Below are positions 7,942-51,841 of a stretch of DNA of 64,000 nt, piece after piece. The translations under genes were made by a program, and so were the position numbers. Position 1 is the first letter of the stretch, and every line of letters starts with the position of its first letter. The notes beneath the pieces are model-generated. The model searched no databases. It saw only the letters and a list, made by a program, of their open reading frames with translations, and was not told where the DNA came from. This DNA is from Paucidesulfovibrio longus DSM 6739 (GTDB taxonomy: Bacteria; Desulfobacterota; Desulfovibrionia; Desulfovibrionales; Desulfovibrionaceae), in NCBI RefSeq assembly GCF_000420485.1, contig NZ_ATVA01000013.1, positions 139,894-203,893 on the forward strand. The letters are read 5' to 3'.

Positions 7942-7972
7942 CCGACGCATCGGCTCCGGCTCCGGTAAGTAA
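7942..7972 (+). promoter_or_regulatory. Phage promoter element P1 (replication operon)
   Basis: CCGACG (7942-7947), 18 bp, TAAGTAA (7966-7972), with TCCGG immediately before the second box. It starts just after the sigma-gene stop and 70 bp before the 8043 start. A stem GCCGC/GCGGC (7980-7984/7990-7994) lies in the predicted leader. It would drive the nuclease-recombination-helicase-primase operon through 16647. Confidence 0.8.
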
Positions 7973-8042
7973 GCACCGTGCCGCATGGTGCGGCTATCCG
8001 GGGCCTCGGAAATCTGAACCTGAACGAAAGAGGAGTTCAACC

Positions 8043-8378
8043 ATGACTCACGACACCTACAAGTACCGTTTTGACGAGTCGGTCCCGGCCCAGGAACTGG
8101 AAGACACTTTCATGCTGGCGATGCTGGCCGTCGAAAGCCTGCATGGCCGTTCCCGTGTGCGGATGGAGAGCCGGTTCAATCTGGACAAGGCCCGACGCAC
8201 CTGCGTGATAGACGCCTCCACCGATGTCGGCAGCGACCTCGCCCGCATTTTCACCGGCTTCGCCACCAAGGAATACGGCGAACGCTCGGTCCTGATCGAA
8301 CGTACCCAGCCGTCGGGTTGCGCCTGTGCCTCCAAGCATCGCGCAGCGCCCGCCGCCGAAGCGGGGGTGGCGGTATGA
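8043..8378 (+). CDS. Hypothetical protein, first gene of replication operon
   Basis: 111 residues, ATG at 8043 after AGAGGAG. It is acidic in the first half, with a segment (about 38-85) that looks like a small alpha/beta domain and a Cys/Ala-rich tail (CACASKHRAAPAA). No known family is recognised. Its stop overlaps the next ATG (ATGA), so it is coupled to the PD-(D/E)XK nuclease gene. Likely an early protein by position. Confidence 0.7.
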   Translation: MTHDTYKYRFDESVPAQELEDTFMLAMLAVESLHGRSRVRMESRFNLDKARRTCVIDASTDVGSDLARIFTGFATKEYGERSVLIERTQPSGCACASKHRAAPAAEAGVAV

Positions 8379-9391
8379 GCGAGCTGATGACCACCACCTA
8401 TTCCATGTGGCGGCTGTTCCGCAACTGCCGCATGGCCTGCAAGTGGCGCTACATCGACGAGCTGGTGCCGCTCGAGCGCGACCCCAATCTGGCCTTCGGC
8501 TCGGTCATCCACGACTGCCTGGAGTGCTGGCACGGCGAGCGGAATCTGTCCAAGGTCCTCGACCATATCGACCGGACCTATCCGAACCGGGCGCAGGACG
8601 ACCATCAACAGGCCGACTGGCATCTCGCCCGGGCCATGATGAGCGCCTATGCGGAACACTACCCGGCCGAAGAGTTCGAGGTCGTCGCGCTCGAGAAAAC
8701 CTTCGAAGGTCCCATCGTCAACCCGGCGACCGGGGCGACCTCGCGCAGTTTCATTCTCGCCGGGAAGGTGGACGGCATCGTCCGTCAGGATGGCCAGTAT
8801 TTCCTACTGGAACACAAAACCGCCTCGCAGATCGACGCCAGCTACCTGGAGCGGCTGTGGACCGATTTCCAGATCATCCTCTACGCCTGGTACCTGGAGC
8901 AGACCCTCGGCATCACGGTCAGCGGCATCATCTACAACGTCCTGGTCAAGGCCAAGTTGCGTCAGGGCAAGGGTGAGACCGAAGCCGAATTCGAGGCCCG
9001 GCGGGCGGAGCTGATCGCCAAGTCGAAAACCGGCAAGAGCAGCGCCAAGCGCAAGCTGCCGGAGGACGACGAAACCTTCCAGCAACGGCTCCAGGAGAAG
9101 TACCTCGAGCCGGGCATGTTTCATCGCGAGGTGCTCTACATCTCCCGCGACCAGTTCGAGGAACTGCGGGCGGAGCTGTGGGAACTCTCCAAGGCCATGC
9201 TCGACGCCCGTCGGCGCGACATCTTCTACCGCAACACCAGCTACTGCTTCCAGTACGGAAGGCCCTGCGCCTACTTCCAGCTCTGCCGCTCGGGCGGCAA
9301 CCCCAACGTCATCGAAAACCATTTCCAACGGATCGCCCCGCACGAAGAGCTGCGGGACGGAGCCGGTGAAGACGCCGCTCCGGTGTTCTGA
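8375..9391 (+). CDS. PD-(D/E)XK nuclease (RecB/Cas4-like)
   Basis: 338 residues. The nuclease core shows the conserved pattern: Gly-Ser-Val-Ile-His near residue 38, GKVDGI (about 130) supplying the Asp, and LLEHKTA (about 145) supplying the E-x-K. A C-terminal cysteine set (Cys in YCFQYGRPC and QLC) resembles the iron-sulfur cluster region of RecB/Cas4 exonucleases. It probably processes DNA ends for phage recombination together with the neighbouring Sak4-like ATPase and SSB-like protein. The ATGA overlap with the upstream gene fixes the start. Confidence 0.85.
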   Translation: MSELMTTTYSMWRLFRNCRMACKWRYIDELVPLERDPNLAFGSVIHDCLECWHGERNLSKVLDHIDRTYPNRAQDDHQQADWHLARAMMSAYAEHYPAEEFEVVALEKTFEGPIVNPATGATSRSFILAGKVDGIVRQDGQYFLLEHKTASQIDASYLERLWTDFQIILYAWYLEQTLGITVSGIIYNVLVKAKLRQGKGETEAEFEARRAELIAKSKTGKSSAKRKLPEDDETFQQRLQEKYLEPGMFHREVLYISRDQFEELRAELWELSKAMLDARRRDIFYRNTSYCFQYGRPCAYFQLCRSGGNPNVIENHFQRIAPHEELRDGAGEDAAPVF

Positions 9392-9417
9392 AATCCCAAC
9401 CATAAGGAGACGAAGCC

Positions 9418-10188
9418 ATGCTTCCCAAGACCAAAAGCAAACCCAAACACACGCTCTCGGATCTCACCGCCCTGGTGTACGGCCCGAGCAAGATCGGCAA
9501 GAGCACCTGGTGCTCGAAGGCCGATGACGCACTGTTCCTGGCGACCGAGCCGGGCCTGAACGCCCTGGAGGTGTTCCAGACCCCGATCACCTGCTGGGAC
9601 GACCTCTTGCAGGCCTGCGCCGAGATCGCCGAGGGCAAGCACGAGTTCAAGACCATCGTCGTCGACACGGTGGATAACGCCTACAAGATGTGCTCGGACT
9701 ACGTCTGCAAGAAATTCAAGATCGAGCACGAATCCGACCTGGGCTACGGCAAGGGCTACGCGCTGATCAACAACGAGTTCCAGCGCGTCATCAACAAGCT
9801 CGCCTTCCTGCCCTACGGGCTAATCCTGATTTCCCACTCCCAGGAGCGGGACATCGAGACCCGGACCGGCAAACACACCCGCATCGTGCCGACGCTGCCG
9901 GAAAAGGCGCGGAAGCTGGTCACCGGTCTGGTGGACCTGATCCTGTTCTGCGACCTGGACATGAAAACCGGCGAGGACGGCAAGCCTGTATGGCAGCGCG
10001 TGATGCGCACCAAGCCCAGTCCCAACTACGACGCCGGTGACCGCACCGGTCGCCTCCCCGAAGTCATCCCCCTCGATTTTTCGAGCTTCATGAAAGCCTT
10101 CAACAACACGGCAGCCGGAGCTGCGGCGAGTGCCGCCCGGCCGAAGCCGGAGCCGACCGCGAGTGCGGCGGCGAAACCCCAACAGTAA
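9418..10188 (+). CDS. Sak4-like AAA ATPase (RecA-fold recombination protein)
   Basis: 256 residues. Walker A is GPSKIGKST (about 22-30) and Walker B TIVVDTVD (about 80-87), in the arrangement of the AAA_24/Sak4 family of phage single-strand annealing proteins. The C-terminal 30 residues are Ala/Pro-rich and probably disordered. It would promote strand annealing during phage recombination and is classically found next to an SSB-like protein and an exonuclease, as here. Confidence 0.87.
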   Translation: MLPKTKSKPKHTLSDLTALVYGPSKIGKSTWCSKADDALFLATEPGLNALEVFQTPITCWDDLLQACAEIAEGKHEFKTIVVDTVDNAYKMCSDYVCKKFKIEHESDLGYGKGYALINNEFQRVINKLAFLPYGLILISHSQERDIETRTGKHTRIVPTLPEKARKLVTGLVDLILFCDLDMKTGEDGKPVWQRVMRTKPSPNYDAGDRTGRLPEVIPLDFSSFMKAFNNTAAGAAASAARPKPEPTASAAAKPQQ

Positions 10189-10200
10189 GGAGATCCGACC

Positions 10201-10674
10201 ATGGAACACTACGAAAACCAATCCAACAGCAACCTCGACCTGGCGCAGTTCGACGACGCCTTCGAAACCGCCGAAGTCGAGGAACGTGAGTTCGAGGCCG
10301 TTCCCGACGGCAAGTACCAGGTCAACGTCGACCGGGTCGAACTGACCCGCGCCCAGACCTCGGGCAATCCCATGCTCAAGTGGACCCTGCGCATTCTCGC
10401 GCCGACCCACAAGGGCCGTCTGCTCTGGCGTAACAACGTCATGGCCAGCAACGAGAACATCAAGTGGCTCAAGCAGGACCTCTACACCTGCGGGCTGCAG
10501 CTTCAGAAACTCTCCGACCTGCCGGGCCACCTCGAGCAGCTTCTCAACATCAAGCTGGAGGTGACCAAACGCACTCGTGGTGAAAACGAGAACATCTACT
10601 TCAACCGTCGCATTGTCATGGCCGACGATGCCGGGGCTCCCGGCGCGGCGATGGACGACATGATCCCGTTCTGA
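10201..10674 (+). CDS. DUF669 single-strand DNA binding-like protein
   Basis: 157 residues, the DUF669 pattern (PDGKYQVNVDRVELTRAQTS, MLKWTLRIL, GRLLWRNNVM). The protein ends in an acidic hydrophobic tail, MDDMIPF, closely resembling the protein-docking tip of bacterial SSB. This tail and the neighbours (Sak4-like ATPase, nucleases, primase-helicase) support a role as the phage ssDNA-binding protein. Stop and next start overlap. Confidence 0.85.
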   Translation: MEHYENQSNSNLDLAQFDDAFETAEVEEREFEAVPDGKYQVNVDRVELTRAQTSGNPMLKWTLRILAPTHKGRLLWRNNVMASNENIKWLKQDLYTCGLQLQKLSDLPGHLEQLLNIKLEVTKRTRGENENIYFNRRIVMADDAGAPGAAMDDMIPF

Positions 10675-11156
10675 TGATGGACCGGATCACCGTTGTCGTC
10701 GACACCCGCGAACAGGAGCCCTACAGCTTCGATACAGACAAGGTTTCGGCGGTTCGCAAGGCGCTGCCCGCCGGTGATTACTCGCTGGTCGGCCTCGAGG
10801 AACGGGTGGCGGTGGAGCGTAAATCCCTGACGGATTTCGTCTCCACCGTCATCCGAGGGCGAAAGCGGTTCCATCGCGAACTGGAAAAGCTCTCCGCCTA
10901 CGAATCCGCCTGCGTGGTTGTCGAGTGCAACTTTCGCGATCTGGTCGATGGCCGCTACCGCAGCGATGCCCACCCGCACGCGCTGATCGGAACGGTCGCC
11001 TCCATCGTCGTCGACTTCGGTGTCCCCGTCTACTTCTGCTCGGACCGGCAGGCCGCCTGCCGTTTTGTCGAGGAGTACCTGACACGTTTTCACCGGAGGA
11101 TCGCGAGATGCCAAAAAGAAATGAGAGTAACCCGGCGCGACTCCGGGGAAGAATAG
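10674..11156 (+). CDS. ERCC4-type nuclease
   Basis: 160 residues. The XPF/ERCC4 nuclease motif is present: VDTREQ (8-13), LPAGDYSL (about 34-41) and VAVERKSLTDF (about 50-60, the ERKxxxD signature). There is no helicase or HhH domain, so it is a stand-alone structure-specific nuclease as seen in many phages, probably cutting branched replication or recombination intermediates. The start may be 10674 or the adjacent ATG at 10677. The 3' end overlaps the helicase gene by 49 bp. Confidence 0.88.
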   Translation: MMDRITVVVDTREQEPYSFDTDKVSAVRKALPAGDYSLVGLEERVAVERKSLTDFVSTVIRGRKRFHRELEKLSAYESACVVVECNFRDLVDGRYRSDAHPHALIGTVASIVVDFGVPVYFCSDRQAACRFVEEYLTRFHRRIARCQKEMRVTRRDSGEE

Positions 11157-13336
11157 AGCGCGTTTACTATGCCGGACCCAAGTTCTCCGCAGGCCGACTG
11201 CTCACCCCGACCGGTGAGGAAGTCCAGTTCGCGGGCAATTTGTTCGCCCGTGAAAATCAGCCTGTGGTCCTGCTCGGGTCGTGGTCCACCCATCCCAAAT
11301 ACGGCCGTCAGTTCAAGGTCGACGGGATGGAGCACGATCTCGAACTCGATCCGGAGGGGCTGATCCACTATCTGGCCAACCATCCGGAGATCAAGGGCAT
11401 TGGTCCGGCCAAGGCCAGATTGATCGTCGAGAGTTTCGGCGACGCCTTTGAAGAAACCCTTCTGAGTGACCCCGAACGCATCGCGCTGAAAGCCCGGCTA
11501 CCCATGGACGCGGCCCGGCGGCTGCGCGACGAATGGTTGAAGAACCGCAGCGTCAACGCCGTCATGGCCTGGTTGTCGGCATTCGGCCTGACCCATCATC
11601 AGGTCACCACCCTGGTCGAAAGACTCGGCGGCAACTGCCTCGATATCCTGAAGGAAGACCCGTACATTCTCATTCGGGAGATCCGGGGATTCGGCTTCAA
11701 GAAGGTCGACAAGATTGCCCGCAAGCTGGGAACCCCCAAGGACCATACCCCTCGTATCCGGGCCGGGTTGAATTTCTGCGTCCGTGAAGCCCTGGACAAT
11801 GGCCACTGCTGGATCGAATACGAGGATCTGGTCGACCAGGCCAATCTACTGCTGGTCATGGATGCCCTGGACAGCCGGGTTCGTATCGAGAGCGCCCTCG
11901 ACGCGCTCATCGAAGAACAGGCGCTTTCCTGCGATTCCCACGGCGGGCGTTTCGTGGTCGCTCTGCCGGAGATCGTCCGCATGGAGCGGGAGCTGGCCGC
12001 GCTGTTCGGCCAGGCCGAAACACCCAACCCTCATTTTCAGTCCGTCAAGAAATTCGATGCTCTGATTCGGCGCTGCGCGGCGACGCTGAACGAGAAGCAG
12101 CTCGACGCAGTGCGCTCGGCCCTCCAACACAGCATCAGCCTGATCTCGGGTGGAGCCGGTTCGGGCAAGAGCTACACCATTTCAGTCATCAACACCATCT
12201 GCGAGGAGAGCGATCTGGAGGTCGTGCTCGCCGCGCCGACCGGCAAGGCAGCCAAGCGCCTGGAGGAAGTCAGCGGTCGCAGCGGCACCACCATTCACCG
12301 TCTGCTCGGCTATGACGGCAAGGGTTTCTCGCGCAGCAAGGAGAATCCCATCGATGCCGACGTCTTGGTGGTCGACGAGTTTTCGATGGTCGACGTGCCG
12401 CTGGCCTGGCACCTGTTCGAGGCGGTCGATTTGTCGCGGACCACGGTGCTGCTGGTCGGGGACCACAACCAGCTTCCGCCGGTGGGACCCGGAAACATAC
12501 TGCGCGATCTGATCCAGACACGCGCCATCCCCACGGTCATCCTCGACAAGGTCGTGCGCCAGGCTGGCGTCCTCAAGGAGAACTGCACCGCCGTTCTTAA
12601 GGGCGAGGTGCGCAAGACCAGCGAGGCGTCGGTATCCGGATGCCGGGATTGGTATCTGGTGGATCAGTTCACCGACCCGATGGCGGCACGCTCGTTCCTG
12701 CTGGAGTTGTTTCAGGAGCGGCTCGATGCCCTGGGTTTCGACATCATCAAGGACGTGCAGGTGCTGACGCCGACCCACAAGGGGCCGCTCGGCACCAAAG
12801 AACTGAACGAGGAACTGCAGCGGCTCATCCAGCGCAAACTCTGGAACACCGAAGTACCGCCGGTCGCCATAGGCCGCCGCGCCCCGTTTCTCAAGCACGA
12901 CAAGGTCATCCAGACCCGGAACAACTACGACCTGAACGTGATGAATGGTGCCATCGGCTATGTGGTCGATGTCCTCGCGAACGGCACCCTGGTCATCGAC
13001 TTCGATGGCATGCCGGTGGAGCTGGAGAAAGGGTCGCCCGACCTTCAGGACCTGCAGCTCGCCTATGCGCTCACCATCCACAAAACCCAGGGTTCCGAGT
13101 TCCTCTGCGCCGTGGTGGTGGTCCACAAGGCACATTCCTTCATGCACCACCGCAATCTGCTCTACACAGGAGTGACCCGCGCCCGGCGCACCGCCATTGT
13201 CCTGGGCGACCATTGGGGCATCCAGAATTGCGCCAAGCGTTGCCAGGTGGATGACCGTCGGACCTTTCTGCCCCTGTTTCTGGACGCCGCCCAGCACGCG
13301 GAGGCCGATTTCGCCCGTGTCGCGGAGGTCGAATGA
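11108..13336 (+). CDS. RecD2-like SF1B DNA helicase
   Basis: 742 residues from the ATG at 11108, which has GGAGGA 7 nt upstream. An N-terminal OB-like and helix-hairpin-helix region (IKGIGPAKARLI, about 95-106; IRGFGFKKVDKIA, about 190-202) precedes the helicase core: Walker A GGAGSGKSYT (about 348-357), Walker B VVDEFSM (about 421-427), and the C-terminal YALTIHKTQGSEF motif. This is the architecture of RecD2/TraA-type 5'-3' helicases. It presumably unwinds DNA during phage replication-recombination. It overlaps the ERCC4 nuclease gene by 49 bp and the primase gene by 4 bp. Confidence 0.92.
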   Translation: MPKRNESNPARLRGRIERVYYAGPKFSAGRLLTPTGEEVQFAGNLFARENQPVVLLGSWSTHPKYGRQFKVDGMEHDLELDPEGLIHYLANHPEIKGIGPAKARLIVESFGDAFEETLLSDPERIALKARLPMDAARRLRDEWLKNRSVNAVMAWLSAFGLTHHQVTTLVERLGGNCLDILKEDPYILIREIRGFGFKKVDKIARKLGTPKDHTPRIRAGLNFCVREALDNGHCWIEYEDLVDQANLLLVMDALDSRVRIESALDALIEEQALSCDSHGGRFVVALPEIVRMERELAALFGQAETPNPHFQSVKKFDALIRRCAATLNEKQLDAVRSALQHSISLISGGAGSGKSYTISVINTICEESDLEVVLAAPTGKAAKRLEEVSGRSGTTIHRLLGYDGKGFSRSKENPIDADVLVVDEFSMVDVPLAWHLFEAVDLSRTTVLLVGDHNQLPPVGPGNILRDLIQTRAIPTVILDKVVRQAGVLKENCTAVLKGEVRKTSEASVSGCRDWYLVDQFTDPMAARSFLLELFQERLDALGFDIIKDVQVLTPTHKGPLGTKELNEELQRLIQRKLWNTEVPPVAIGRRAPFLKHDKVIQTRNNYDLNVMNGAIGYVVDVLANGTLVIDFDGMPVELEKGSPDLQDLQLAYALTIHKTQGSEFLCAVVVVHKAHSFMHHRNLLYTGVTRARRTAIVLGDHWGIQNCAKRCQVDDRRTFLPLFLDAAQHAEADFARVAEVE

Positions 13337-16647: not shown

Positions 16648-16662
16648 AGGAGAACTGGTGAG

Positions 16663-17264: not shown

Positions 17265-17287
17265 ATCCATCCTCCTTTGTATGACCA

Positions 17288-17317
17288 AATATAGTCCGAA
17301 AACAGGTCAACTGTCAA
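17288..17317 (-). promoter_or_regulatory. Sigma-70 promoter of the toxin-antitoxin pair
   Basis: On the minus strand, TTGACA (17317-17312) and TATATT (17293-17288) are separated by 18 bp, a near-consensus promoter. An ACAG-N5-CTGT inverted repeat overlaps the -35 side, suiting Phd autoregulation. The module can thus be expressed in the lysogen independently of phage promoters. Confidence 0.75.
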
Positions 17318-17390
17318 TCTGAAACGCTCCGAGTCGCCACCGTGGTGGCTTGGAAAATCATCCAGGACGCTCTCGGGCGTCCTTTTCTTT

Positions 17391-17919
17391 TGCGGTGGTG
17401 CGGTGATCACCGCTCTCTCTTGCGGTGGATGGCCACCGCACGCCAAACCCTTGCCAGATAAGGCTTTCATGCCTTTTGCGGTGGTTGCGGTGGTAAATCC
17501 AGAGGTCTCACCCCCTATGGGTTGAAATATTTTTTCTACCTACCAACCCGACATCCCACGCCAGGCAAATTCCGGCCCAGCGTGAGAGACATTCCCCAAA
17601 TACCACCGCAACCACCGCACTCTCTCTTCTCTTTCTTCATAACTATCTAAAAACAAATAACAAACAAAGAACTACCCCCTGCGGTGGGACAAGAAAACCT
17701 TCCACCGCACGACCACCGCAACCACCGCACATATCCACCGCAGCGGGTGGTCACCGACGGTTTCAGGGCAGCTCCGGTAAGTAACGGGAAAAGCGATTAA
17801 CCCGTATTTCTGGAGCCCGAAGCCATGAGCCTTCTGAAAACCATGATCAAGCACACCGCCGGAGGGCAGGAAGCCTCGGCCGGATGTGAAACCCCATTAT
17901 TACCACCGCAACCACCGCA
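17391..17919. repeat. Iteron-like cluster of CCACCGCA octamers; candidate origin
   Basis: Fourteen exact octamers. TGCGGTGG starts at 17391, 17421, 17477, 17486 and 17680. CCACCGCA starts at 17433, 17603, 17612, 17702, 17713, 17722, 17735, 17903 and 17912. The 17-mer CCACCGCAACCACCGCA occurs at 17603, 17713 and 17903, and inverted at 17477. Two hyphenated palindromes add to this: TGCGGTGG-N4-CCACCGCA at 17421-17440, and GCGGTGATCACCGC at 17400-17413. The clusters flank AT-rich stretches (around 17525-17540 and 17640-17672). The gap follows the primase-helicase gene, so a replication origin is the leading reading; a regulator-binding array is the alternative. The last two copies lie inside the 17825 gene. 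Confidence 0.75.
17754..17784 (+). promoter_or_regulatory. Phage promoter element P2
   Basis: CCGACG (17754-17759), 18 bp, TAAGTAA (17778-17784), with TCCGG before the second box. It lies immediately downstream of the last intergenic CCACCGCA octamer and 40 bp before the 17825 gene. ACGGG/CCCGT (17784-17788/17801-17805) can form a stem in the leader. Confidence 0.78.
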
Positions 17920-18595: not shown

Positions 18596-18598
18596 GCC

Positions 18599-18877
18599 GT
18601 GAAGAAAAAGAAACGTTACGCCAACGCCAAGGATGTCCTGCCCGAGGAACTCTTCGAGCAGATCCAGAAGCACTACACCGGAATTCTCTGGGTTTCAGCA
18701 CCGAGCCGGTTTTACCAGGAACGCCGTGACCTTGTGCTTGCCCTTCATATACAGGGGATCAGCAGCCAGGAGATCTCCAACCTCGCCGGTGTGACCACCC
18801 GCCGGGTCAACCAGATCATCGCCGCCGAACGAAAAAACTGCCAGGAGCAGTTTTTCGCGCAAGCCCCGGAGGGGTGA
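18599..18877 (+). CDS. Small HTH protein (Mor/CD3324-like)
   Basis: 92 residues, GTG start. The N-terminal DVLPEELFEQIQKHYTG is the typical opening of Mor-like and CD3324-like DNA-binding proteins, and a C-terminal HTH (ISSQEISNLAGVTTRRVNQI) is clear. Mor of phage Mu activates middle transcription, so a regulatory function is reasonable, though the phage sigma factor seems to supply the main switch here. It is co-transcribed with 17825. Confidence 0.75.
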   Translation: MKKKKRYANAKDVLPEELFEQIQKHYTGILWVSAPSRFYQERRDLVLALHIQGISSQEISNLAGVTTRRVNQIIAAERKNCQEQFFAQAPEG

Positions 18878-18912
18878 GCCCCAGGGATGGGGTGAACAAA
18901 ACAGGATCGGGA

Positions 18913-18943
18913 CCGACAGTTGGCCGCCGCTTCCGGTAAGTAA
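18913..18943 (+). promoter_or_regulatory. Phage promoter element P3 (small terminase)
   Basis: CCGACA (18913-18918), 18 bp, TAAGTAA (18937-18943), with TCCGG in front of the second box. It is followed by a perfect 8-bp stem, GGCGGGAG (18954-18961) with CTCCCGCC (18984-18991). The small terminase start is 91 bp downstream. Confidence 0.8.
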
Positions 18944-22120: not shown

Positions 22121-22395
22121 AAGAGATCCTTCAGGAAAACAGCGATGCCGTTCGCCAGGCCGGTGAGGCCCTGGTCGAAATCGGCACCGAACTGGCGGCG
22201 GGACGGATCGAGAACGCCCTCGGCCGTCTGGAAGCGGCCCAGCAGCAGTACCGGGCCTGGGCGGAGTTGGACCAGGCCATCATCGACATTCAGGAGGCTG
22301 TCCACGACAGGAAGAACACTCTGGCTGTGCAGCAGATCCTGACGGAACTGGTGGGCACCATCCTCGGCAGCGCCTTGAGGACGGGAATGCACTGA
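22117..22395 (+). CDS. Small coiled-coil protein before large terminase
   Basis: 92 residues, acidic and helical throughout (DAVRQAGEALVEIG, LEAAQQQYRAWAELDQAI), suggesting a coiled coil. No membrane segment or known family. It is coupled to the lipoprotein (4-bp overlap) and to the large terminase (1-bp overlap). Function unknown. Confidence 0.65.
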   Translation: MKEILQENSDAVRQAGEALVEIGTELAAGRIENALGRLEAAQQQYRAWAELDQAIIDIQEAVHDRKNTLAVQQILTELVGTILGSALRTGMH

Positions 22396-23927: not shown

Positions 23928-23958
23928 CCGACGCTTTCCACCCCGCTCCGGTAAGTAA
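23928..23958 (+). promoter_or_regulatory. Phage promoter element P4 (portal operon)
   Basis: CCGACG (23928-23933), 18 bp, TAAGTAA (23952-23958), with TCCGG before the second box. The leader holds two stems: CCGGC/GCCGG (23959-23963/23969-23973) and CGGCCC/GGGCCG (23977-23982/23987-23992). The portal start is 74 bp downstream. Confidence 0.8.
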
Positions 23959-24032
23959 CCGGCATCGAGCCGGATTCGGCCCACACGGGCCGGATGTGCG
24001 GCTGTCATGGCCGAAACTACCGAGAGGATCAC

Positions 24033-25541
24033 GTGGAAAGCACCGCCCATCAGGACGAACAACCCGAAAGCCTGGACACCACCGGCTTTGTCATCGCGCC
24101 GATGGCAGCAGCGGCCGCGCTCGACTCGGCCGCCTTCGCCAAGGTGAACGCCGCCGAAGCGATTCCGGCCACCTGGGAAGAACGCGCCCGTAAGGCCTGG
24201 GAATACTACGTCGAGGAGCCGCTGGTGAAGAACTGCGTCAACTCCTGGCGCACCTTCGCCGTGGGCGACGAGATCAAAATCACCAGCGATGACGAGACCC
24301 TCAAGGAGCAGGCCCTGGAGGCCGCCTGGCGGCTGAACGTCTCGCAGTTCATCAAAGACATGGTTCTTCAGCTCCTGGTGAAAGGCGACGCCATCGGCTT
24401 CAAACGCTTCACCAAGTCCGGCCAGGACATCGAGGAGCTGGTCTGCGTCAACCCGGTTTCGGTCAAGGTCAAATACGCCCAGGGCGAGCTGATCGAGGCC
24501 CGGCAATTTCCCGAGGACACACCCGGCGGCGGCGAATCCATTCCGCTGCCCGTCGAGCAGGTGGTCCACCTCAAATGGGACGCACCGGCCTTCTCGCCCC
24601 GAGGCAACTCCCTCGTGCTTCCCGCCTTTCAAGCCATCGAACTGCTGCGCGACTACCGCCGGGCCGAACAGGCCATCGCCAAGCGCTGGGCCACGCCGTT
24701 CCGCCTGCTCAAGGTGGGTGGCGCGTTCGGCCAGAAGATGGTGATGCCGGACCAGCGGATGCTCGAACAGGTCCGCGACATGGTCAACAAGATGGACATG
24801 AAAAGCGGCCTGGTGGTCCCGTTCTACGTCAACGTCGAAACCCACGGCACCGACGGCCAGGTCCTCAACGTCGAGGACAAGGTCAAGGAGGTGAAGGAAG
24901 ACATCGTGGTGGCCTTGGGGCTGTCACGCTCGCTGGTGACCGGCGACGGTCCGAACTTCGCCACCGCCTCGGTGAGCATGCAGAAGATGATGGTCATGAT
25001 CCGCGAGATCAAACAGGCCGCTCGAAAGCTCCTCGACTGGGTGTTCGACGACTGGATGGAACTGAACGGCCACGGCGACAAGAGCATCCAGTTTATCTTC
25101 AACGACCTCGACCCCAGCGACGCGGTCGATTTCAAGAAGCTCCTCATCGAACTCTACGACCGCAAACTCATCAGCCGCTCCAGCCTCCAGCTCAAGATGG
25201 ACCTGGACCCGGACATCGAGGCCGCCAACCGCGAGACCGAACGCAAACAGATCGACCTGATGGACGAGAAACAGGTGAAGCCGGTGGTGGATATGGTCGT
25301 CTCCGGCATTCTCAGCGTGCCTCGCGCCCGGAAGATGCTCGGGATTCCGGCCGAGGATAATGAACCCACGGCGGAGGCGGCATTGGTCTGGTCGGGCGAC
25401 CTGGAGTCCACCGGCATTGCTGCCGTATGCGACGAGTGCAGCCACTTCATTGCTGACACCAACCACTGCCGGGTCCACAACAGCGAGCGCACCTTCGACG
25501 CCCCGGCCTGTCGTTTCATCGACCGCCGGGAGCCCCGCTGA
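24033..25541 (+). CDS. Portal protein
   Basis: 502 residues from a GTG at 24033 with a GAGAGG site; an upstream in-frame ATG at 23994 falls inside the leader hairpin and is less likely. Typical portal features are visible: ARKAWEYYVEEPLVKNCVNSW near the start, VVHLKWDAPAFSPRGNS, and the stem/clip region around ALGLSRSLVTGDGPNFATAS. A C-terminal Cys/His cluster (CDECSHFIADTNHCRVH) may bind zinc. It forms the dodecameric DNA gateway. The stop overlaps the next start. Confidence 0.87.
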   Translation: MESTAHQDEQPESLDTTGFVIAPMAAAAALDSAAFAKVNAAEAIPATWEERARKAWEYYVEEPLVKNCVNSWRTFAVGDEIKITSDDETLKEQALEAAWRLNVSQFIKDMVLQLLVKGDAIGFKRFTKSGQDIEELVCVNPVSVKVKYAQGELIEARQFPEDTPGGGESIPLPVEQVVHLKWDAPAFSPRGNSLVLPAFQAIELLRDYRRAEQAIAKRWATPFRLLKVGGAFGQKMVMPDQRMLEQVRDMVNKMDMKSGLVVPFYVNVETHGTDGQVLNVEDKVKEVKEDIVVALGLSRSLVTGDGPNFATASVSMQKMMVMIREIKQAARKLLDWVFDDWMELNGHGDKSIQFIFNDLDPSDAVDFKKLLIELYDRKLISRSSLQLKMDLDPDIEAANRETERKQIDLMDEKQVKPVVDMVVSGILSVPRARKMLGIPAEDNEPTAEAALVWSGDLESTGIAAVCDECSHFIADTNHCRVHNSERTFDAPACRFIDRREPR

Positions 25542-31005: not shown

Positions 31006-31036
31006 CCGACACATCGCCGACGCTTCCGGTAAGTAA
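31006..31036 (+). promoter_or_regulatory. Phage promoter element P5 (methyltransferase-capsid operon)
   Basis: CCGACA (31006-31011), 18 bp, TAAGTAA (31030-31036), with CTTCCGG before the second box. The leader has a 9-bp stem with one mismatch, GCTCCCCGC (31046-31054) with GCGGAGAGC (31060-31068). The next start is 56 bp downstream. Confidence 0.82.
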
Positions 31037-36394: not shown

Positions 36395-36425
36395 CCGACA
36401 CATCGCCAGCGCTTCCGGTAAGTAA
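36395..36425 (+). promoter_or_regulatory. Phage promoter element P6 (sheath-tail operon)
   Basis: CCGACA (36395-36400), 18 bp, TAAGTAA (36419-36425), with CTTCCGG before the second box. The first start (TTG 36450) is 24 bp downstream, the shortest leader of the set, and no leader stem is seen here. Confidence 0.8.
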
Positions 36426-38800: not shown

Positions 38801-38815
38801 CGGGAGAACACGGCT

Positions 38816-39277: not shown

Positions 39278-39292
39278 ACCGGAGGATCGACC

Positions 39293-43100: not shown

Positions 43101-43749
43101 CTCCGCTCGCGCCATGCTGGGAGTCCAGACCCCGGTCCCGCAGGTGGCCGAGCAGAAACAACCGCTCGGAGCTGCGCCGCCCGCCGAATCGATTGGGCAA
43201 CGCATCATCGAAAGCGTGCTCAGTCTCGTGCCGCGTCTGGACGAACGCCTGGTGCCCAAGGCCCTGAGCGCCATGCTGATGCTCCAGCCAGTCATGGCCA
43301 CGGCCGCGCCACCCCCACAACCGATGAGCGGCACCGTGCAGACCGTCGCGGCGGCCGTCGAGCCGGTAAGTAAGAGCTACATCCAGCCGTTTGCGGTGGA
43401 ACCGGCACCGGAAATCGGAAGTGCCTCTCCCGCTCCGGCCGGGATCGAGCGGCCCAAGACGGCCGCGCCGACTCCGATAGCGAAGCCCCTGCAATCCGGA
43501 CTGACCGAGACGGTGCCTTCCGAACGCTTGATCGCTCCGGCCCGCACCGCTCCCGCGACACCCCTGCGGGCAGAGGACGCCGGTCCGGGTCTGCGCGAGC
43601 TTCTGGAATCGCTGCTCTCGCGCCTCGATGGCCTGGCCGACCGCCCGGTGGAACTGAGCGTGACCACCAACATCGATGGCCGGAAGGTGGCCGAGGCCGT
43701 CTACAAGGATCTTCGGGAGCGGAAGATCAGAAACTACGAAACCCTGTGA
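40114..43749 (+). CDS. Tape measure protein
   Basis: 1211 residues. The N-terminal region (about 80-310) matches phage minor tail/TP901-type tape measure domains (LASLGVQDLRAIEDAAESF, FKTNGTQMADAIKNIGAVAAASN). Several hydrophobic segments follow around 395-470 (LGTILVVAGAVTAAVGMVGL, TYFLPVTAIIAGVILSVYLL) and more between 590 and 720. The C-terminal third is Ala/Pro-rich. Its length sets tail length and it threads through the tube. A promoter-like element lies inside the 3' end at 43343. Confidence 0.9.
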   Translation: MNGDLGLGIVVSMKDAFSQNAQRIRGSMMDLDSTVADASERMTRNLDRIQQGTMMLGAGLALMAVPAALVASTAATQKALGELASLGVQDLRAIEDAAESFTNQWSGADKAAFITATYDVKSALSNLSDEAVGVFTSMAAMTAKATKATTQEMVGTFTTAYGIFKPIMADMNDMEWATAFSGAMAQTVASFKTNGTQMADAIKNIGAVAAASNIPLNEQLAVLGQLQTTMPGSEAGTLYKAFIMKAAEAGDELGLSFTDTSGRLKGVVPILQEIKRQFPDLSNAAAQVKLKKAFGSDEAVKFLLQMSAGTESLEGNIQSVGRAMKTGTAVTEQMADAMNQDIGARFLLLRQQVANLSEILGRTLLPVVTPVINGVSRFILFLQRMAKSMPGVTRVVLGLSMALGTILVVAGAVTAAVGMVGLMLPAIKAGFVAISAALAGVGSAVATYFLPVTAIIAGVILSVYLLKRAWETNFGGIQDVITGAWNKVSLVFRGIRELVGSLSGGVGQMSAELAHKLESAGLLGFVVTVFKAYYRVREALAGLWGAFSHAFGRIRAILEPTVRTLMSAYAALASAVFSVVEIFGVAASATDGSSWRTFGTVIGTVAGVLLQGLAFALKIVAWNLSLIVRALAVVVRSVVWVGKIIVGSLVGAAKFIYKFLLPVRMIGEAFMATGKIVYAVWQVLTGDISLLDGLKVIGGAVYDFLATPFRWARDVVVGVWNFISGIFTSIGRLVADAAGQIGQAILNLPIISTLRDLFATVRSFFAGDTTFFEAGKKLLITLGEGIWSAVTYPFTMLKNALGKLRNLLPFSDAREGPLASLTASGSALLKTLADGMSLTQSLPAKVFGFAARGILSAAAGAWQQVKTAGGNLMDAASAPFRMAGKLWDGLTSGAQTVAAKAGAIFEGLKQSLFGGTPELAITPPQVNAWDALATGAVTVRDRIVATLSAVPGAVGRIFASAGTEGQSLWQRLSSGASAGIQAIKDRSAGIANGLLSSARAMLGVQTPVPQVAEQKQPLGAAPPAESIGQRIIESVLSLVPRLDERLVPKALSAMLMLQPVMATAAPPPQPMSGTVQTVAAAVEPVSKSYIQPFAVEPAPEIGSASPAPAGIERPKTAAPTPIAKPLQSGLTETVPSERLIAPARTAPATPLRAEDAGPGLRELLESLLSRLDGLADRPVELSVTTNIDGRKVAEAVYKDLRERKIRNYETL
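43343..43373 (+). promoter_or_regulatory. Possible internal promoter element (variant copy)
   Basis: CCGTCG (43343-43348), 18 bp, TAAGTAA (43367-43373), with GCCGG rather than TCCGG before the second box. It differs from the consensus at one position in each conserved block yet keeps the exact 18-bp spacing. It lies inside the tape-measure coding sequence, 385 bp before the 43758 gene, and could add transcription of the hub genes, or be a chance match. Confidence 0.35.
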
Positions 43750-43757
43750 GAGGACCG

Positions 43758-44063: not shown

Positions 44064-44072
44064 GTGTAAGGA

Positions 44073-44830: not shown

Positions 44831-44835
44831 AGCGT

Positions 44836-44866
44836 CCGACACCTCGCCATGCCTTCCGGTAAGTAA
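44836..44866 (+). promoter_or_regulatory. Phage promoter element P7 (hub operon)
   Basis: CCGACA (44836-44841), 18 bp, TAAGTAA (44860-44866), with CTTCCGG before the second box. The start of the hub gene is 30 bp further. A small GCAG-GGAA-CTGC stem (44867-44878) lies in the leader. Confidence 0.8.
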
Positions 44867-44896
44867 GCAGGGAACTGCGAACTACCGGAGAGACGC

Positions 44897-48005: not shown

Positions 48006-48017
48006 AGGAAGCATCGC

Positions 48018-48392
48018 ATGGGAGAAAGAACAACAACGCCCTCCGGACTCTCGGCCAGCGAGGAATTGCTGGCCCGGACCTTCGATCATTGGCGGGAGGA
48101 ATTCCGCAGCATCCTCGAAAACCACCGCCGGGAAATCCAGGACCGACTCGAGAAGATCGAGCGTGAAATCGAGAAGAAATCGGACAAGGAAAACGTCGAG
48201 GTACTGGTCCGCTCGATCTATTCCGATCTGCACCGGCACGCCGAGGAGATCGACCGGCTGCACGCCCGGGTCGGCTCCAAGATGGGGACCGAGACCATGT
48301 GGAAGATCGTCGGCCTGGTGCTGACCATCGGCAGCACCATCGGCGGACTCGTCGGCTTTCTGATCCATCTGCTGCTGAAGGTAAACCCATGA
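48018..48392 (+). CDS. Holin-like protein with coiled coil and one TM helix
   Basis: 124 residues. A long charged coiled coil (about 20-85: FRSILENHRREIQDRLEKI) precedes a single C-terminal membrane segment (about 93-120, IVGLVLTIGSTIGGLVGFL). One transmembrane helix with a coiled coil fits several small phage holin or pinholin-like proteins. It lies near the M15 endolysin, separated by two genes. The alternative is a membrane-anchored tail accessory. Confidence 0.6.
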   Translation: MGERTTTPSGLSASEELLARTFDHWREEFRSILENHRREIQDRLEKIEREIEKKSDKENVEVLVRSIYSDLHRHAEEIDRLHARVGSKMGTETMWKIVGLVLTIGSTIGGLVGFLIHLLLKVNP

Positions 48393-48652
48393 GCTCCCAG
48401 GCGCGACTCGGCGACATCAGCAGTCACGGCGGCGTCATCATCACCGGAGCGAGCCGGACGCTGGACAACGGCATGCCGGTGGCCCGCATGGGGGATCTGC
48501 ACGTCTGTCCCATCCCGGGGCATGGCGTGACGCCCATCGTGACCGGCAGCTTCGATACCATCACCGAAGGATTGCCCAACGCCCGCATCGGCGACATCAC
48601 CGCCTGCGGAGCCATCATCGTCACCGGCAGTCCCGACACCATCGACAACTGA
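48389..48652 (+). CDS. PAAR-domain spike tip protein
   Basis: 87 residues. Typical PAAR repeats are visible: ARLGDISSHGGVIITG, GMPVARMGDLHVCPIPGHGVTPIVTGS and GLPNARIGDITACGAIIVTGS, with the His/Cys ligands for the tip metal. It caps the spike encoded at 46956. The start overlaps the holin-like gene stop (ATGA). Confidence 0.92.
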   Translation: MSSQARLGDISSHGGVIITGASRTLDNGMPVARMGDLHVCPIPGHGVTPIVTGSFDTITEGLPNARIGDITACGAIIVTGSPDTIDN

Positions 48653-48662
48653 GGAGGCCGCC

Positions 48663-48971
48663 ATGAACACTCTCGAACAGCCGCAGGAACCGCACTACTG
48701 GGATGTCTTCCCGAAGCTGATCCGCGTCTCGCGATCCCCATTCGTCCAGCGCATTCCGCTCTCGATCCGTGGCCTACCCGAAACACCGGTGTTCGAATCG
48801 TCCAATCCCGACGTGGCCAGTGTCGATGAAGACGGCAATGTCGAATGCGGCTTCGTTCCCGGAGCGGCCATGATTCTGGTCTGGGATTCGCCCGAGCGGC
48901 TCAGCCTGCGGCACGTTCAGGTCGAGGTCTATGGCGGCGGCGTCTCCGCACCGGTGGAGGTCCCTTCATGA
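48663..48971 (+). CDS. Ig-like tail protein, short tandem paralogue
   Basis: 102 residues. A single Ig-like (BIG2-type) module, with FESSNPDVASVDEDGNVECG as the typical loop. By hand alignment about half of its residues match the N-terminal module of the next gene, so the two arose by tandem duplication. It probably decorates the baseplate or spike. The stop overlaps the next start. Confidence 0.78.
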   Translation: MNTLEQPQEPHYWDVFPKLIRVSRSPFVQRIPLSIRGLPETPVFESSNPDVASVDEDGNVECGFVPGAAMILVWDSPERLSLRHVQVEVYGGGVSAPVEVPS

Positions 48972-49978
48972 CGGATGCCCCGCCAACCTTTTGCCACTGG
49001 GAGGTACAGCCTCGCTCCATCCGCCTCTCCGCTGGCGAGTTCGAGCAACGGGTTCCGCTCTCCCTGCGCGGCGACGTGGACGCCCCGGTCTTTGCCTCCA
49101 GCAATCCGGAGGTCGCGGAGATCGGGCCGGACGGCGTCATTCGCTGCGGCTGGACCATCGGCAACGCCGTGCTCATGGTCTGGCGATCCTCGGTCCGGGA
49201 CAGCCTCCGCCATGTTCTGGTGGAGGTCCGCGATCCGTCCTGGTTCGCCGACCACCCGGACTTTGCCAGCGGAGCATCGGTCTTCCTCAGCGGCATGGTG
49301 GTCAACGCCCTCAACACCAGCGGCGTCGGCAACGCGCTGATCGAATTCCGCCGCTCGGAAACCGGCCCGGCGGCGTTCCAGACCTTCGCCAACGCCTATG
49401 GCGGGTTCGAGCTGACCGTGCCCGAGGGGTTCTATTACGTGGAGGTCACCGCGCCGGGATACATCGCCTGGCATGGCTGGGTGAACGCCGACACCAACAC
49501 CTCCGGCGACATCCAGATCGTTCTCTCGCCCGAACTCGACGGCCAGGTCGCCCGCATCGTGTTGCAGTGGGGGCTCAACCCCCGGGATCTCGATTCCCAT
49601 CTCACCGGACCGACGCCATCGGGCGGTCGCTTCCATGTGTTCTATTCCCACACCATCGAAAACGAGGCGGCGGAATTGGACGTGGACGACACCAGCTCCT
49701 ACGGGCCGGAGACCATCACCATCCATCGGCTCATCCCCGGCGTCTACCGCTACGCGGTCCACGACTACACCAACCGCAACACCAATCCGAGCACCGGCCT
49801 GGCGCAGTCCGGAGCCACGGTGAAAGTGTTCCTGAGCGATGGCCGTGAGCAGACCTTCACCGTTCCCAACGCCCCGGGTACGGTCTGGACCGTGTTCGAA
49901 ATCGACGGCGCGACTGGAACAGTGACGCCGGTCAACGCCATGAGCTATCAATCCCAACCCGCCAATGTCGGCATGTAA
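48968..49978 (+). CDS. Ig-like tail protein with carboxypeptidase-regulatory-like module
   Basis: 336 residues. N-terminal Ig-like module (about 1-90) paralogous to the preceding protein. A middle module (about 100-180: ALIEFRRSETGPAAFQTFANAYGGFELTVPEGFYYVEVTAPGY) looks like a carboxypeptidase regulatory/Cna-B-like fold. A C-terminal module (about 190-336) contains WGLNPRDLDSHLTGPTPSGG, resembling DUF2135/YfaP-type domains. Likely a baseplate-associated surface-binding protein. Confidence 0.75.
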   Translation: MTDAPPTFCHWEVQPRSIRLSAGEFEQRVPLSLRGDVDAPVFASSNPEVAEIGPDGVIRCGWTIGNAVLMVWRSSVRDSLRHVLVEVRDPSWFADHPDFASGASVFLSGMVVNALNTSGVGNALIEFRRSETGPAAFQTFANAYGGFELTVPEGFYYVEVTAPGYIAWHGWVNADTNTSGDIQIVLSPELDGQVARIVLQWGLNPRDLDSHLTGPTPSGGRFHVFYSHTIENEAAELDVDDTSSYGPETITIHRLIPGVYRYAVHDYTNRNTNPSTGLAQSGATVKVFLSDGREQTFTVPNAPGTVWTVFEIDGATGTVTPVNAMSYQSQPANVGM

Positions 49979-49990
49979 TGGAGGTTGTCC

Positions 49991-50881
49991 ATGATTTCCG
50001 AAGAACCCTCCGAATTGCAGGCCACTATCGAGCAGACCGATTCCGGCGAACAGCAGTATGTTTTACGGGCGCTCTGCGATCACCTGTCCGGCATCCGTGA
50101 AGAGCTTTCCGGCATCCGCACGCTGCTGGAAGCCGGTCACGCCGCTTCGGAGGCGATGCGCGGCCAGGCCCAGGCCTATCTGGAGGCCCAGCAGGCCAGG
50201 ACCCAGGAGTACCTGGACCAGGTACAGATCGAGCCGGAGCCCGATTTCTATCCCTTCGTCGAACTGCCTGTGGGCACCGAACCCCGGGATCTGCCGGACG
50301 GCAACCGGCTCTTCACCTTGCCCGACGGCATGATCCTGCGGACCACTGACGACCAGCGAATCTGCGTCATCGACGCCGGGGAGCAGCAGGTCGTCACCCC
50401 CGGACCCGGCACGGCCGTCGAGGTCGCCCCGGGACGCCTTTACACCCTGGTCGAGTCCTATCTGAGCGCGACCCGGGAGGCAGCCGGTATCAGCGGACTG
50501 CCCGCCGGGATCGATCCGACCGCCATGGGCGCGGAACGCTTCGCGGTGGATCTGCCCGAGGGCATCCGTCTCGACGTCGATCACCGGGAGCGGTTCATCA
50601 CCCTGATCAACCCGGCCGGACCAATCGACATCATCGGCATCGGCCGCATCGAGGGCATCGGCGAGACCATCACCGTTCGTCTGCTTTCCGGGGGAGCCAA
50701 GGGATTCCAGTGCGGCAAGTCCGGCCACGGCGGGCTGATCGAGGCGGACGGAACCATTCACCTGGGGCTCAAGAGCGGCCTGGATCTGGTGATCCGTTTC
50801 CAGGGAGAAGCTATCGACGACGACACTTCGGAAAGCGGCTGCTCGGGACAGTGCGGCATCGACTGCGAGGAGCGTACCTGA
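49991..50881 (+). CDS. Hypothetical baseplate-region protein
   Basis: 296 residues, ATG with GGAGG upstream. An N-terminal helical segment (about 20-75, with LSGIREELSGIRTLLEAG and a QAQAYLEAQQARTQEYLDQ repeat) precedes a beta-rich C-terminal part. A Cys-rich terminus (SGCSGQCGIDCEE) is notable. No family is recognised; its place before gp25 suggests a virion or assembly protein. Confidence 0.6.
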   Translation: MISEEPSELQATIEQTDSGEQQYVLRALCDHLSGIREELSGIRTLLEAGHAASEAMRGQAQAYLEAQQARTQEYLDQVQIEPEPDFYPFVELPVGTEPRDLPDGNRLFTLPDGMILRTTDDQRICVIDAGEQQVVTPGPGTAVEVAPGRLYTLVESYLSATREAAGISGLPAGIDPTAMGAERFAVDLPEGIRLDVDHRERFITLINPAGPIDIIGIGRIEGIGETITVRLLSGGAKGFQCGKSGHGGLIEADGTIHLGLKSGLDLVIRFQGEAIDDDTSESGCSGQCGIDCEERT

Positions 50882-51798
50882 TGAGCTATGACTTTCTCGG
50901 CAAGGGATTGCGCTACCCGTTCCGGTTTCAGTCGGTATCCGGCGGCACCCAGATCTCGGCCGCCACCTCGCGGGAGCACGAACATATCCGCGAAAGCATC
51001 CTGCAGATCCTCGGCACCCGGATCGGCGAACGGTTCATGAATCCGGAGTTCGGCTCCAGGCTGAAGGATCTGGTGTTCGAACAGAACGACGAGGTGCTCA
51101 AGGGTCTGCTGCGCCATTACGTGATCGACGCCATCAAGCGCTGGGAAAAGCGGGTGATCATCACGGAGGTGCGCTTCGACGACCGGCCGCTGAACATCGA
51201 CGGCAACCTGCTGCTGGTGCATATCGCCTACCGGGTGATCCAGAGCCAGGTGGACGGCAACCTGGTCTATCCCTTCTACAGAGAAGACCCGAACAATCCC
51301 GCGCCCAGCTATCCCCAGCCGGAACCAGAGCCGGAACCGCCGCCGGTGCGCAGCGTGCGCCTGTCGCCGGACGTGCGCTCACTGTTCAATCTGCTCTGGT
51401 TCGACGCGGCCGAAATGAGTCCCGATCCGGACGATTCCTTCATCTGGCCAGCCGGAGAATACGAGATCGCCTACATCGAGGGAGCCTTTCAGGACCGCAA
51501 CGGCAAATGGATCGTCAGCGATCCGGGTGACAATCACGGCCATTATCTGGTCTTCGAGGGAGCGCCTGAAACGGAAGCGCCCCAGGCCGAGCATGCCCTC
51601 TATCTGGCTGCGAGCGGTCTGGGCTTCAACACCCAGAGCCAGGCGGAAGACAACGCCGCTGGCACCGTTCACCGGATCACCACGTCGGAGCCGGGTCGCA
51701 TCGGCCTGTTCTATTTCGAGGGCAAGAAGGAATCCCACTACCTCAACAACACCTCCGGGCAGCCCAATCCCGTCTGGCAACTGCGCGGCCCGCTCTGA
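50881..51798 (+). CDS. Baseplate wedge protein (gp25/gpW-like) with C-terminal extension
   Basis: 305 residues. The first 125 residues match gp25 (ISAATSREHEHIRESILQIL, RIGERFMNPEFGSRLKDLVFE), the wedge lysozyme-like sheath initiator. A Pro/Glu linker (PQPEPEPEPPPV) is followed by about 150 extra residues of unknown type. Ordinary gp25 proteins are 100-150 aa, so this is an unusual fusion. It ends the P7 operon. Confidence 0.85.
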   Translation: MSYDFLGKGLRYPFRFQSVSGGTQISAATSREHEHIRESILQILGTRIGERFMNPEFGSRLKDLVFEQNDEVLKGLLRHYVIDAIKRWEKRVIITEVRFDDRPLNIDGNLLLVHIAYRVIQSQVDGNLVYPFYREDPNNPAPSYPQPEPEPEPPPVRSVRLSPDVRSLFNLLWFDAAEMSPDPDDSFIWPAGEYEIAYIEGAFQDRNGKWIVSDPGDNHGHYLVFEGAPETEAPQAEHALYLAASGLGFNTQSQAEDNAAGTVHRITTSEPGRIGLFYFEGKKESHYLNNTSGQPNPVWQLRGPL

Positions 51799-51810
51799 GG
51801 CATCCCGCCT

Positions 51811-51841
51811 CCGACACATCCAGGCCCCTTCCGGTAAGTAA
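51811..51841 (+). promoter_or_regulatory. Phage promoter element P8 (baseplate/fibre operon)
   Basis: CCGACA (51811-51816), 18 bp, TAAGTAA (51835-51841), with CTTCCGG before the second box. It is followed by a perfect 8-bp stem, GCGAGAGC (51850-51857) with GCTCTCGC (51865-51872). The baseplate-J gene starts 56 bp after the element. Confidence 0.82.

Follow-up and report, generated by a model that had tools for sequence, protein, structure and literature searches.

Most known late regulators of temperate phages are antiterminators or activators. Among the activators, RinA/Ltr of staphylococcal temperate phages are encoded directly before their own target promoter, according to the accessible part of the report (PMC13123087). 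In Salmonella phage 7-11, the sigma factor SaPh711_gp47 has eight late promoters with the consensus GTAAtg-(16)-aCTA, and the promoters of phiEco32 gp36 (tAATGTAtA) are single-element sites with no −35 part, that sigma factor being without region 4 homology; both descriptions come from the accessible sections of one paper (PMC8948821). The PBSX prophage of Bacillus subtilis carries Xpf, described in the available text of its source as a prophage-linked positive control factor of group IV type, with sigma2 and sigma4 (PMC10141391). Here we analyse a 64,000-nucleotide stretch of the Paucidesulfovibrio longus DSM 6739 genome (the window), which holds a prophage with a gene for a sigma factor and ten copies of a short two-part element, CCGACR-N18-TAAGTAA or a near form of it. 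Our reading, to which we give a probability of roughly 0.85, is that the window represents a temperate myophage which encodes a sigma factor resembling the extracytoplasmic function (ECF) type and places its lytic genes, together with those of the integrase operon, under this single regulator, and in which structured RNA leaders probably gate the sigma factor and the integrase. The reading is built on comparison, namely on co-occurrence, fixed spacing, lineage-specific co-drift, helix covariation and the presence of two RNA copies; sigma binding, promoter activity, the direction of the RNA switch and its signal are what we infer.

Eight exact copies of CCGACR-N18-TAAGTAA, all on the + strand, lie precisely where an initial annotation of this DNA had placed them, compared with matches in 0 of 100 dinucleotide shuffles, and TCCGGTAAGTAA is constant across all eight, as had been noticed then. 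The eight stand between open reading frames (ORFs) taken as genes. Measured from the end of the element to the first usable start codon, the distances are, in order, 70, 40, 91, 35, 53, 24, 30 and 56 bp, which reproduces the 24–91 bp reported earlier for operon starts; at 23928, an alternative start with a better ribosome site lies at 74 bp. Seven of the eight also begin soon (3–35 nt) after an upstream stop, as claimed, the exception being 17754, where the nearest upstream + strand ORF of at least 77 codons ends at 17525. The set of eight proved to be incomplete, since two further elements, one at 43343 and one on the minus strand at 3509–3479, bring it to ten. The copy at 43343 lies inside the tape-measure ORF, so the description of every copy as intergenic holds for the listed eight and not for this one; in phages G462 and G463, a full-consensus element stands 1.54 kb before the next one, and the corresponding distance in the window is 1.49 kb (a likeness of unaligned distance only). 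The minus-strand copy lies between the repressor and the integrase operon and points at the integrase, with 165 nt to the first start of that operon. What had been called a dedicated lytic set thus does cover replication, packaging, capsid, tail and baseplate genes, but it also includes the integrase operon.

The elements appear to be confined to the prophage. In the complete set of 19 contigs of its own genome (3,701,832 bases), CCGAC-N19-TAAGTAA matched eight times on the forward strand and never on the reverse, always in the prophage, and the same pattern written backwards gave 0 and 1 matches. The looser CCGNC-N17-GGTAAGTAA, with up to one mismatch, gave nine forward matches and one reverse match, all ten within the window (control counts, 2 and 3). 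This bears on the possibility that the elements are promoters of a borrowed host alternative sigma factor: the genome has four matches to PHROG 1740, with host sigma genes likely among them, yet not one element copy lies outside the prophage in 3.70 Mb, and the element class travels with the phage sigma gene in assemblies of Desulfobacterota, Ectothiorhodospira, Methylococcus and Planctomycetota. We regard such borrowing as extremely improbable, and a reading of the elements as a host regulon was rejected because the host genome has no copies outside the prophage.

The protein encoded just upstream of the first element is a two-domain sigma factor. It matches TIGR02937 (sigma-70/ECF superfamily, regions 2 and 4) over residues 16–187 with 58.2 bits against a cut-off of 42.9 (7.6e-16), Pfam Sigma70_r2 (PF04542) with 24.9 bits against a cut-off of 24 (1.7e-5), and PHROG 1740 at 2e-25. 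All four Foldseek matches of its AlphaFold model (predicted local distance difference test 76.9, predicted template modelling score 0.42) at E≤0.001 are sigma factors, three of them ECF sigma complexes; their low global template modelling scores (0.27–0.29) are expected if the two domains are placed differently. Among the fold matches as a whole, headed by ECF sigma complexes, this score is 0.27–0.32. The Pfam ECF region 4 family (Sigma70_r4_2) reached 22.3 bits, below its cut-off of 25.7, so the label "ECF-type" given earlier holds for domain composition and fold, and denotes no known ECF subgroup. The ECF promoter consensus is GGAAC at −35 and CGTC at −10; the elements, with CCGACR and TAAGTAA, do not conform to it. 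PHROG 1740 was also tried as a marker of this sigma family and was rejected, since it matches 234 of 297 genomes and, among 14 control genomes, 8.

Relatives of the sigma factor are found in 16 distinct loci of viral contigs (67–96% identity), in 4 of 59 related genomes, its own included, and in 20 loci of GTDB genome contigs (35–97% identity, two partial genes) from Desulfobacterota, Ectothiorhodospira, Methylococcus and Planctomycetota. A profile search gave 64 viral loci at 26–96% identity, and 11 of 395 genomes of the phylum have the sigma factor, with 15 genes in all. One genome (G073) has three sigma genes, and an 83-kb viral record (G452) has two copies. The element stands beside the sigma gene in all 20 close loci, counting the window's own. 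When the spacer was left free between 12 and 24 bp, using a scoring matrix that was drawn up after examples had been seen and that favours no spacer, 72 of 81 distinct sigma loci scored best at exactly 18 and one (L219) at 23; among the 72 are 11 in which the sigma gene ends within the element's own letters. Across the whole range of homologues (26–97% identity), diverged sigma genes have the element at the same place with its letters drifted. Even where the sigma gene has been relocated away from the homologue of ORF 8043, as in G492, that homologue keeps an element of its own.

To see if copies within one phage have drifted alike, the sigma-proximal element of each record was used as a query on that same record, allowing 2 mismatches over 15 letters; of 28 records, three without a sigma-proximal element (G466, G476 and G461) were set aside and 25 used. 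At a spacer of 18 this found 75 further copies on the forward strand and four on the reverse, and none at spacers of 17, 19 or 20. Forward matches at 21, 22 and 10 (22, 11 and 8, respectively) all reuse the −10 of 18-bp elements with sloppy −35 letters, 41 in all; as for the other spacers, 25–30 gave 32 in all, and 11–16 and 24 gave 0–2 each. At least one further copy is present in 19 of the 25 records. Besides TAAGTAA, the variants include TAGGTAT (G428, G189), TATATAT three times (G454), CCGTCA..TAAGTAT twice (G453), TA(C/T)GTAT including TACGTAT (G334, G073b, G469) and GCGTCA..TAGGTCT twice (G467). In G454 (L269), a consensus element at 6602 lies directly before the sigma leader, its −10, TAAGTAA, being unlike that phage's TATATAT type; autoregulation is possible there.

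The association also holds in the opposite direction. Among the matches listed, 22 IMG/VR records of at least 25 kb chosen by motif only include 12 with the sigma gene, and nine of the ten without it begin or end beyond its place, the tenth being G486. The co-occurrence in relatives, which the initial annotation had suggested as a check, is seen from both sides, and its proposal that the sigma factor recognises the elements is supported, by comparison, through co-occurrence and co-drift at one spacing. We consider it very probable that the phage sigma factor reads the elements. A residue-letter association, to be taken as a hint, concerns Y175 in the recognition helix: over 71 elements in 24 clusters at 75% identity, and uncorrected for phylogeny, all 18 CGAC lineages have Tyr at this position, against 2 of 6 CGTC lineages.

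Two other explanations of the elements deserve attention. They might be sites where a phage DNA-binding activator (Mu C, Ogr or RinA/Ltr type) brings in the sigma-70 holoenzyme of the host, with some other task for the sigma-like protein, and ORF 18599–18877, which is helix-turn-helix-like (E 6e-4), could supply such an activator. The repeats upstream of a host-type promoter that go with Ltr/RinA and Mu C are, however, not seen at the elements: by eye, these contain neither palindrome nor direct repeats, each being a single, asymmetric, bipartite site with both halves fixed at one spacing. Scans of 3400–52200 likewise found no sigma-70-type site at any of the ten; they returned 4, 0 and 0 sites compared with 3.8, 2.5 and 1.2 in shuffles, two of the four being the repressor promoter at 3532. 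The drift of element letters with the sigma lineage also speaks against an activator, which we give a small chance of being right. Alternatively, the elements might be no promoters at all, but DNA sites (partition, packaging or recombination) or RNA-processing signals at operon heads. Their unusual uniformity would suit such a role, as would the copy within an ORF; on the other hand, they are oriented with the genes that follow, eight of them within the short distances given above, while the minus-strand copy faces the integrase operon on that strand, and a packaging or partition site would need no such orientation. This last explanation has very little credence in our view.

Recognition of the elements by the phage sigma factor is only one layer of the proposed regulon. 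A structured leader of the sigma gene, which had gone unnoticed, probably adds translational control. The stretch between ORF 6832–7158 and the sigma start folds with a z-score of −5.3 (on 7159–7370). No Rfam family matched anywhere in the window at the gathering threshold, and at E≤5 the leader had a single chance-level match, to a long non-coding RNA on the reverse strand (E 1.2). A GTGGGT-type pattern matches 58 of the 81 sigma leaders, with three further leaders too short, and our alignment (A3) comprises 33 leaders selected by this motif or a near form. In it, hairpin 1 (GCGGAGG..GUUGUGGGUG..CUCGCAAC..CCUCCGC) has 89.2% of its cells paired, a long-range helix (GUGGGUGUCG:CGACACCCAC) 96.9% and a Shine-Dalgarno hairpin 77.2%. 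The structure containing the long-range helix is paired in 90.4% of cells, compared with 36–54% in slid controls. RNAalifold picks this helix unaided, with compensatory changes from UA to CG in eight sequences at one pair and from UA to AU in one; the 28 cells changed on both sides and the covariation score of the structure both exceed all 500 shuffles. Hairpin 1 and the long-range helix share one strand and are thus mutually exclusive. In forced folds, hairpin 1 is the more stable in 19 of the 33 leaders, although on average the long-range helix is ahead by 0.3 kcal/mol. The Shine-Dalgarno sequence has a mean unpaired fraction of 0.11 when hairpin 1 is imposed, which rises to 0.28 under the long-range helix. 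Taken together, the alignments make it highly probable that the sigma leader is a functional RNA, probably a cis-regulatory switch, and tilt the balance towards its gating translation.

The window appears to hold this RNA twice, the second time as the leader of the integrase operon. The sigma-leader model, R1, scores the window's sigma leader at 103.9 bits, the window being in its training set. Across the 395 genomes it found 16 places, 15 of which precede the 15 sigma genes (in G396, match and gene are some 100 nt apart) and one DUF2924/serine recombinase; since part of the 15 were in the training alignment, the telling part is the absence elsewhere. In 80 sources, R1 gave 26 matches of at least 43 bits. 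Its weak matches at integrase leaders (window 3311–3427 on the minus strand, L303, L299, L302 and L295; 16–20 bits, E 0.13–0.71) prove nothing alone, because antisense echoes of sigma leaders score level with them, at 17–24 bits. A second model, R2, built from six integrase leaders only, found 35 matches in 16 of the 395 genomes, including sigma leaders outside its training. Of 30 loci fetched, 25 were read: 17 lead into DUF2924/recombinase, seven into sigma and one (L403) lies at a contig start. In 16 of the 17 DUF2924/recombinase loci the element is just upstream of the leader, and the long-range helix is found again, with compensatory changes, in 16 aligned integrase leaders. Comparison of the sequences thus places the sigma leader and the integrase-operon leader in the same structured RNA class.

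Conservation next to an integrase operon, and in two copies per phage, could also mean that the leader is a DNA site, such as a serine-integrase attachment site, an origin or an operator, and not an RNA. The compensatory changes in the long-range helix of both leader classes argue otherwise, as do the ends of the copies at start codons and their position downstream of the promoter element at the integrase operon in those 16 of 17 loci. A DNA site therefore seems rather unlikely. A wider interpretation is in our estimate an even bet: an undescribed RNA switch family would stand twice in phages of a broad temperate family, before the lytic sigma factor and, downstream of a sigma-dependent promoter, before the DUF2924/serine-integrase operon. 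Through it, a common signal would act at translation on the lytic sigma factor as well as on the machinery for integration and excision, and twin leaders within a phage sigma regulon would make the lysis-lysogeny decision.

Several observations weigh against the regulon as we propose it. An element is missing from eight of the 81 sigma loci; a contig end truncates one of these, and the others are for the most part the most distant homologues. Six of the 25 records have no second copy. Sigma homologues share ancestry, so part of the conservation next to the sigma gene is descent, and the residue associations ignore phylogeny. The support for a link between sigma factor and element is comparative, not experimental. 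For the leader, two of five pair-count measures are not above shuffles: in the structure with the long-range helix, pairs changed on both sides number 5 (shuffle mean 5.9) and further pair types 20 (shuffle mean 22.2), and for hairpin 1 the same two measures were reached by 136 and 66 of 500 shuffles. Modelling gives the direction of the switch weak support, the two states being near-equal in energy and the Shine-Dalgarno sequence mostly paired in both. Ten diverged sigma loci gave no match to the sigma leader RNA (L168, L209, L210, L218–L220, L223, L224, L227 and L239), and neither did Wolbachia phage WO. Conversely, five genomes carry an integrase leader, at seven places, and none of the five has a detectable sigma gene. 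For three of these places a contig end can be the reason (G447 C64; G447 C168, read over 10,000 of its 12,272 bases; and the 6.4-kb contig of G398), which leaves four: G123 C6, G218 C1 near 701787, G447 C47 and G405 C19. These four look like prophage remnants, because few or no other phage relatives adjoin, or might be satellites relying on the sigma factor of a helper phage. None of the seven places bears on how sigma factor and element are linked in intact phages.

With these points in mind, the events in the proposed regulon may be pictured as follows. The sigma gene lies downstream of the gene for the phage LexA-like repressor, which would hold an early promoter that presumably starts the sigma gene, and release of the repressor would yield an mRNA carrying ORF 6832 and the sigma gene. 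In that mRNA, the leader strand GUGGGUGUCG would pair either within hairpin 1 or with CGACACCCAC beside the Shine-Dalgarno hairpin, and the leader would gate sigma translation. Together with host core RNA polymerase, the sigma factor would read CCGACR as −35 through region 4 and GGTAAGTAA as an extended −10 through region 2, 18 bp apart. It would open nine places on the + strand, for replication, packaging, capsid, tail and baseplate genes, and one on the minus strand, for the integrase operon, whose mRNA would bear the same RNA gate. No element lies upstream of the sigma gene in the window, so something else would start it. Since the same RNA class precedes the integrase operon, one signal would probably gate the lytic master regulator and the integrase alike, at the level of translation.

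The features of the window are collected in Table 1. Two small conserved neighbours of the sigma gene, the products of ORFs 6832–7158 and 8043–8378, are candidate anti-sigma or RNA-binding partners. Upstream of the former lies a palindrome, GTGAAC-N7-GTTCAC (6746–6764), possibly an early operator. Another palindromic, operator-like site, ACCTGATATGCATCAGGT (3535–3552), overlaps the sigma-70-like promoter (3532) before the LexA-like repressor gene. A strong sigma-70-like site, TTGACA-18-TATATT (11/12), is found on the minus strand at 17317–17288, directed leftward, against the late genes. ORFs on the + strand between 319 and 3638 were dropped as genes, being antisense shadows that overlap the minus-strand integrase operon and its leader.

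Table 1. Elements, RNAs and genes of the proposed regulon in the window (positions count from the first nucleotide of the window)
Feature	Position	Strand	Description
Element 1	7942–7972	+	CCGACG-N18-TAAGTAA; heads recombination/replication operon
Element 2	17754–17784	+	CCGACG-N18-TAAGTAA; heads ORF 17825
Element 3	18913–18943	+	CCGACA-N18-TAAGTAA; heads ORF 19035 and subsequent genes (terminase at 22395)
Element 4	23928–23958	+	CCGACG-N18-TAAGTAA; heads portal gene 23994–25541
Element 5	31006–31036	+	CCGACA-N18-TAAGTAA; heads methyltransferase/capsid operon
Element 6	36395–36425	+	CCGACA-N18-TAAGTAA; heads ORF 36450 and tail sheath/tube genes
Element 7	43343–43373	+	CCGTCG-N18-TAAGTAA; within tape-measure ORF; absent from initial annotation
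Element 8	44836–44866	+	CCGACA-N18-TAAGTAA; heads tail protein operon
Element 9	51811–51841	+	CCGACA-N18-TAAGTAA; heads baseplate operon
Element 10	3479–3509	−	CCGACA-N18-TAGGTAA; absent from initial annotation
Phage sigma factor gene	7354–7938	+	194 aa, sigma2-sigma4
Structured RNA leader of sigma gene	7193–7356	+	Hairpin 1, long-range helix, Shine-Dalgarno hairpin
Structured RNA, second copy; integrase-operon leader	3311–3430	−	R1 18.5 bits, E 0.27; R2 116.8 bits (window in R2 training set)
80-aa ORF, first integrase-operon gene	3071–3313	−	No Pfam family; relatives among the R2-matched loci
DUF2924 protein	2512–3030	−	Pfam PF11149, 6e-53
Large serine recombinase (probable integrase)	933–2519	−	Pfam Resolvase 1e-39, Recombinase, Zn_ribbon
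LexA-like repressor	3568–4239	+	TIGR00498 175 bits, above cut-off; Pfam S24, LexA
108-aa ORF before sigma leader	6832–7158	+	Relatives at 38–49% in the seven R2-matched sigma loci; no family
111-aa ORF, first gene after element 1	8043–8378	+	No family

In Desulfobacterota, a whole family of phages, related to others in assemblies of gammaproteobacteria and planctomycetes, seems to rely on a sigma factor of its own and on some ten promoters that are nearly identical. Many pairs of sigma factor and promoter have drifted together at one spacing; they make up a natural data set on co-evolution, from which candidate orthogonal pairs could be drawn. The twin leaders, unmatched in Rfam, link the lytic sigma factor with the integrase through what is likely a single post-transcriptional signal, and open the lysis-lysogeny decision of these phages to testing.

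A more distant parallel may exist in Wolbachia phage WO, whose sigma factors (H1–H7) are 24–28% identical to ours. In the WO record KX522565, a gene noted as AAA24 comes next after the sigma gene, just as an AAA_24 gene comes after sigma in the window. WO phages have a repeated element of their own, [CT]GGACGAATT..CGT(GT/AC)ATATAT, which follows the sigma gene and also heads the divergent operon (L332, 8521 + and 7674 −; L331, 6534 +, 5496 − and 12152 +). It differs from the element described here in its letters and in a spacer that, by eye, varies by one, and R1 found no RNA leader in WO. In the open literature, the three papers naming DUF2924 all concern Wolbachia, judging by their titles. 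For Wolbachia transcription, the accessible text mentions motifs resembling those of sigma-70 and a further one, TAAAAT, whose function is unknown, and names no role for the phage sigma factor. A WO sigma factor with its own repeated element suggests a possible control of WO transcription.

We recognised no description of the motif, the sigma family or the RNA leader among the papers listed from the open PMC literature, most of them unopened (subscription papers and preprints lie outside it). The earlier statement that no described example exists therefore stands as regards the motif and not as regards the principle, which is known from phage 7-11. Besides the motif, neither the breadth of the family nor an integrase operon within such a regulon was found in print, nor, above all, were the twin RNA leaders. 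PBSX differs in being a defective prophage of a Gram-positive host, and to our knowledge neither a shared multi-promoter motif nor an RNA leader has been described for it. Phage 7-11 is lytic and is not known to have an integrase operon. What is already known, as far as the accessible parts of the sources go, is a phage sigma factor with eight bipartite late promoters in phage 7-11 (PMC8948821) and a prophage-linked sigma factor, Xpf (PMC10141391). RinA/Ltr differ in being, by the available account, activators whose action requires repeats ahead of a host-type promoter (PMC13123087), and phiEco32 gp36 resembles our case in being a phage sigma factor for middle and late genes, according to the sections at hand (PMC8948821). 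Phage 7-11 itself has another motif and another spacing, and the accessible sections on it mention no RNA leader (PMC8948821). The two systems are alike in having several copies of a bipartite motif at fixed spacing before late operons. In the family described here, the motif occurs and drifts with the sigma lineage.

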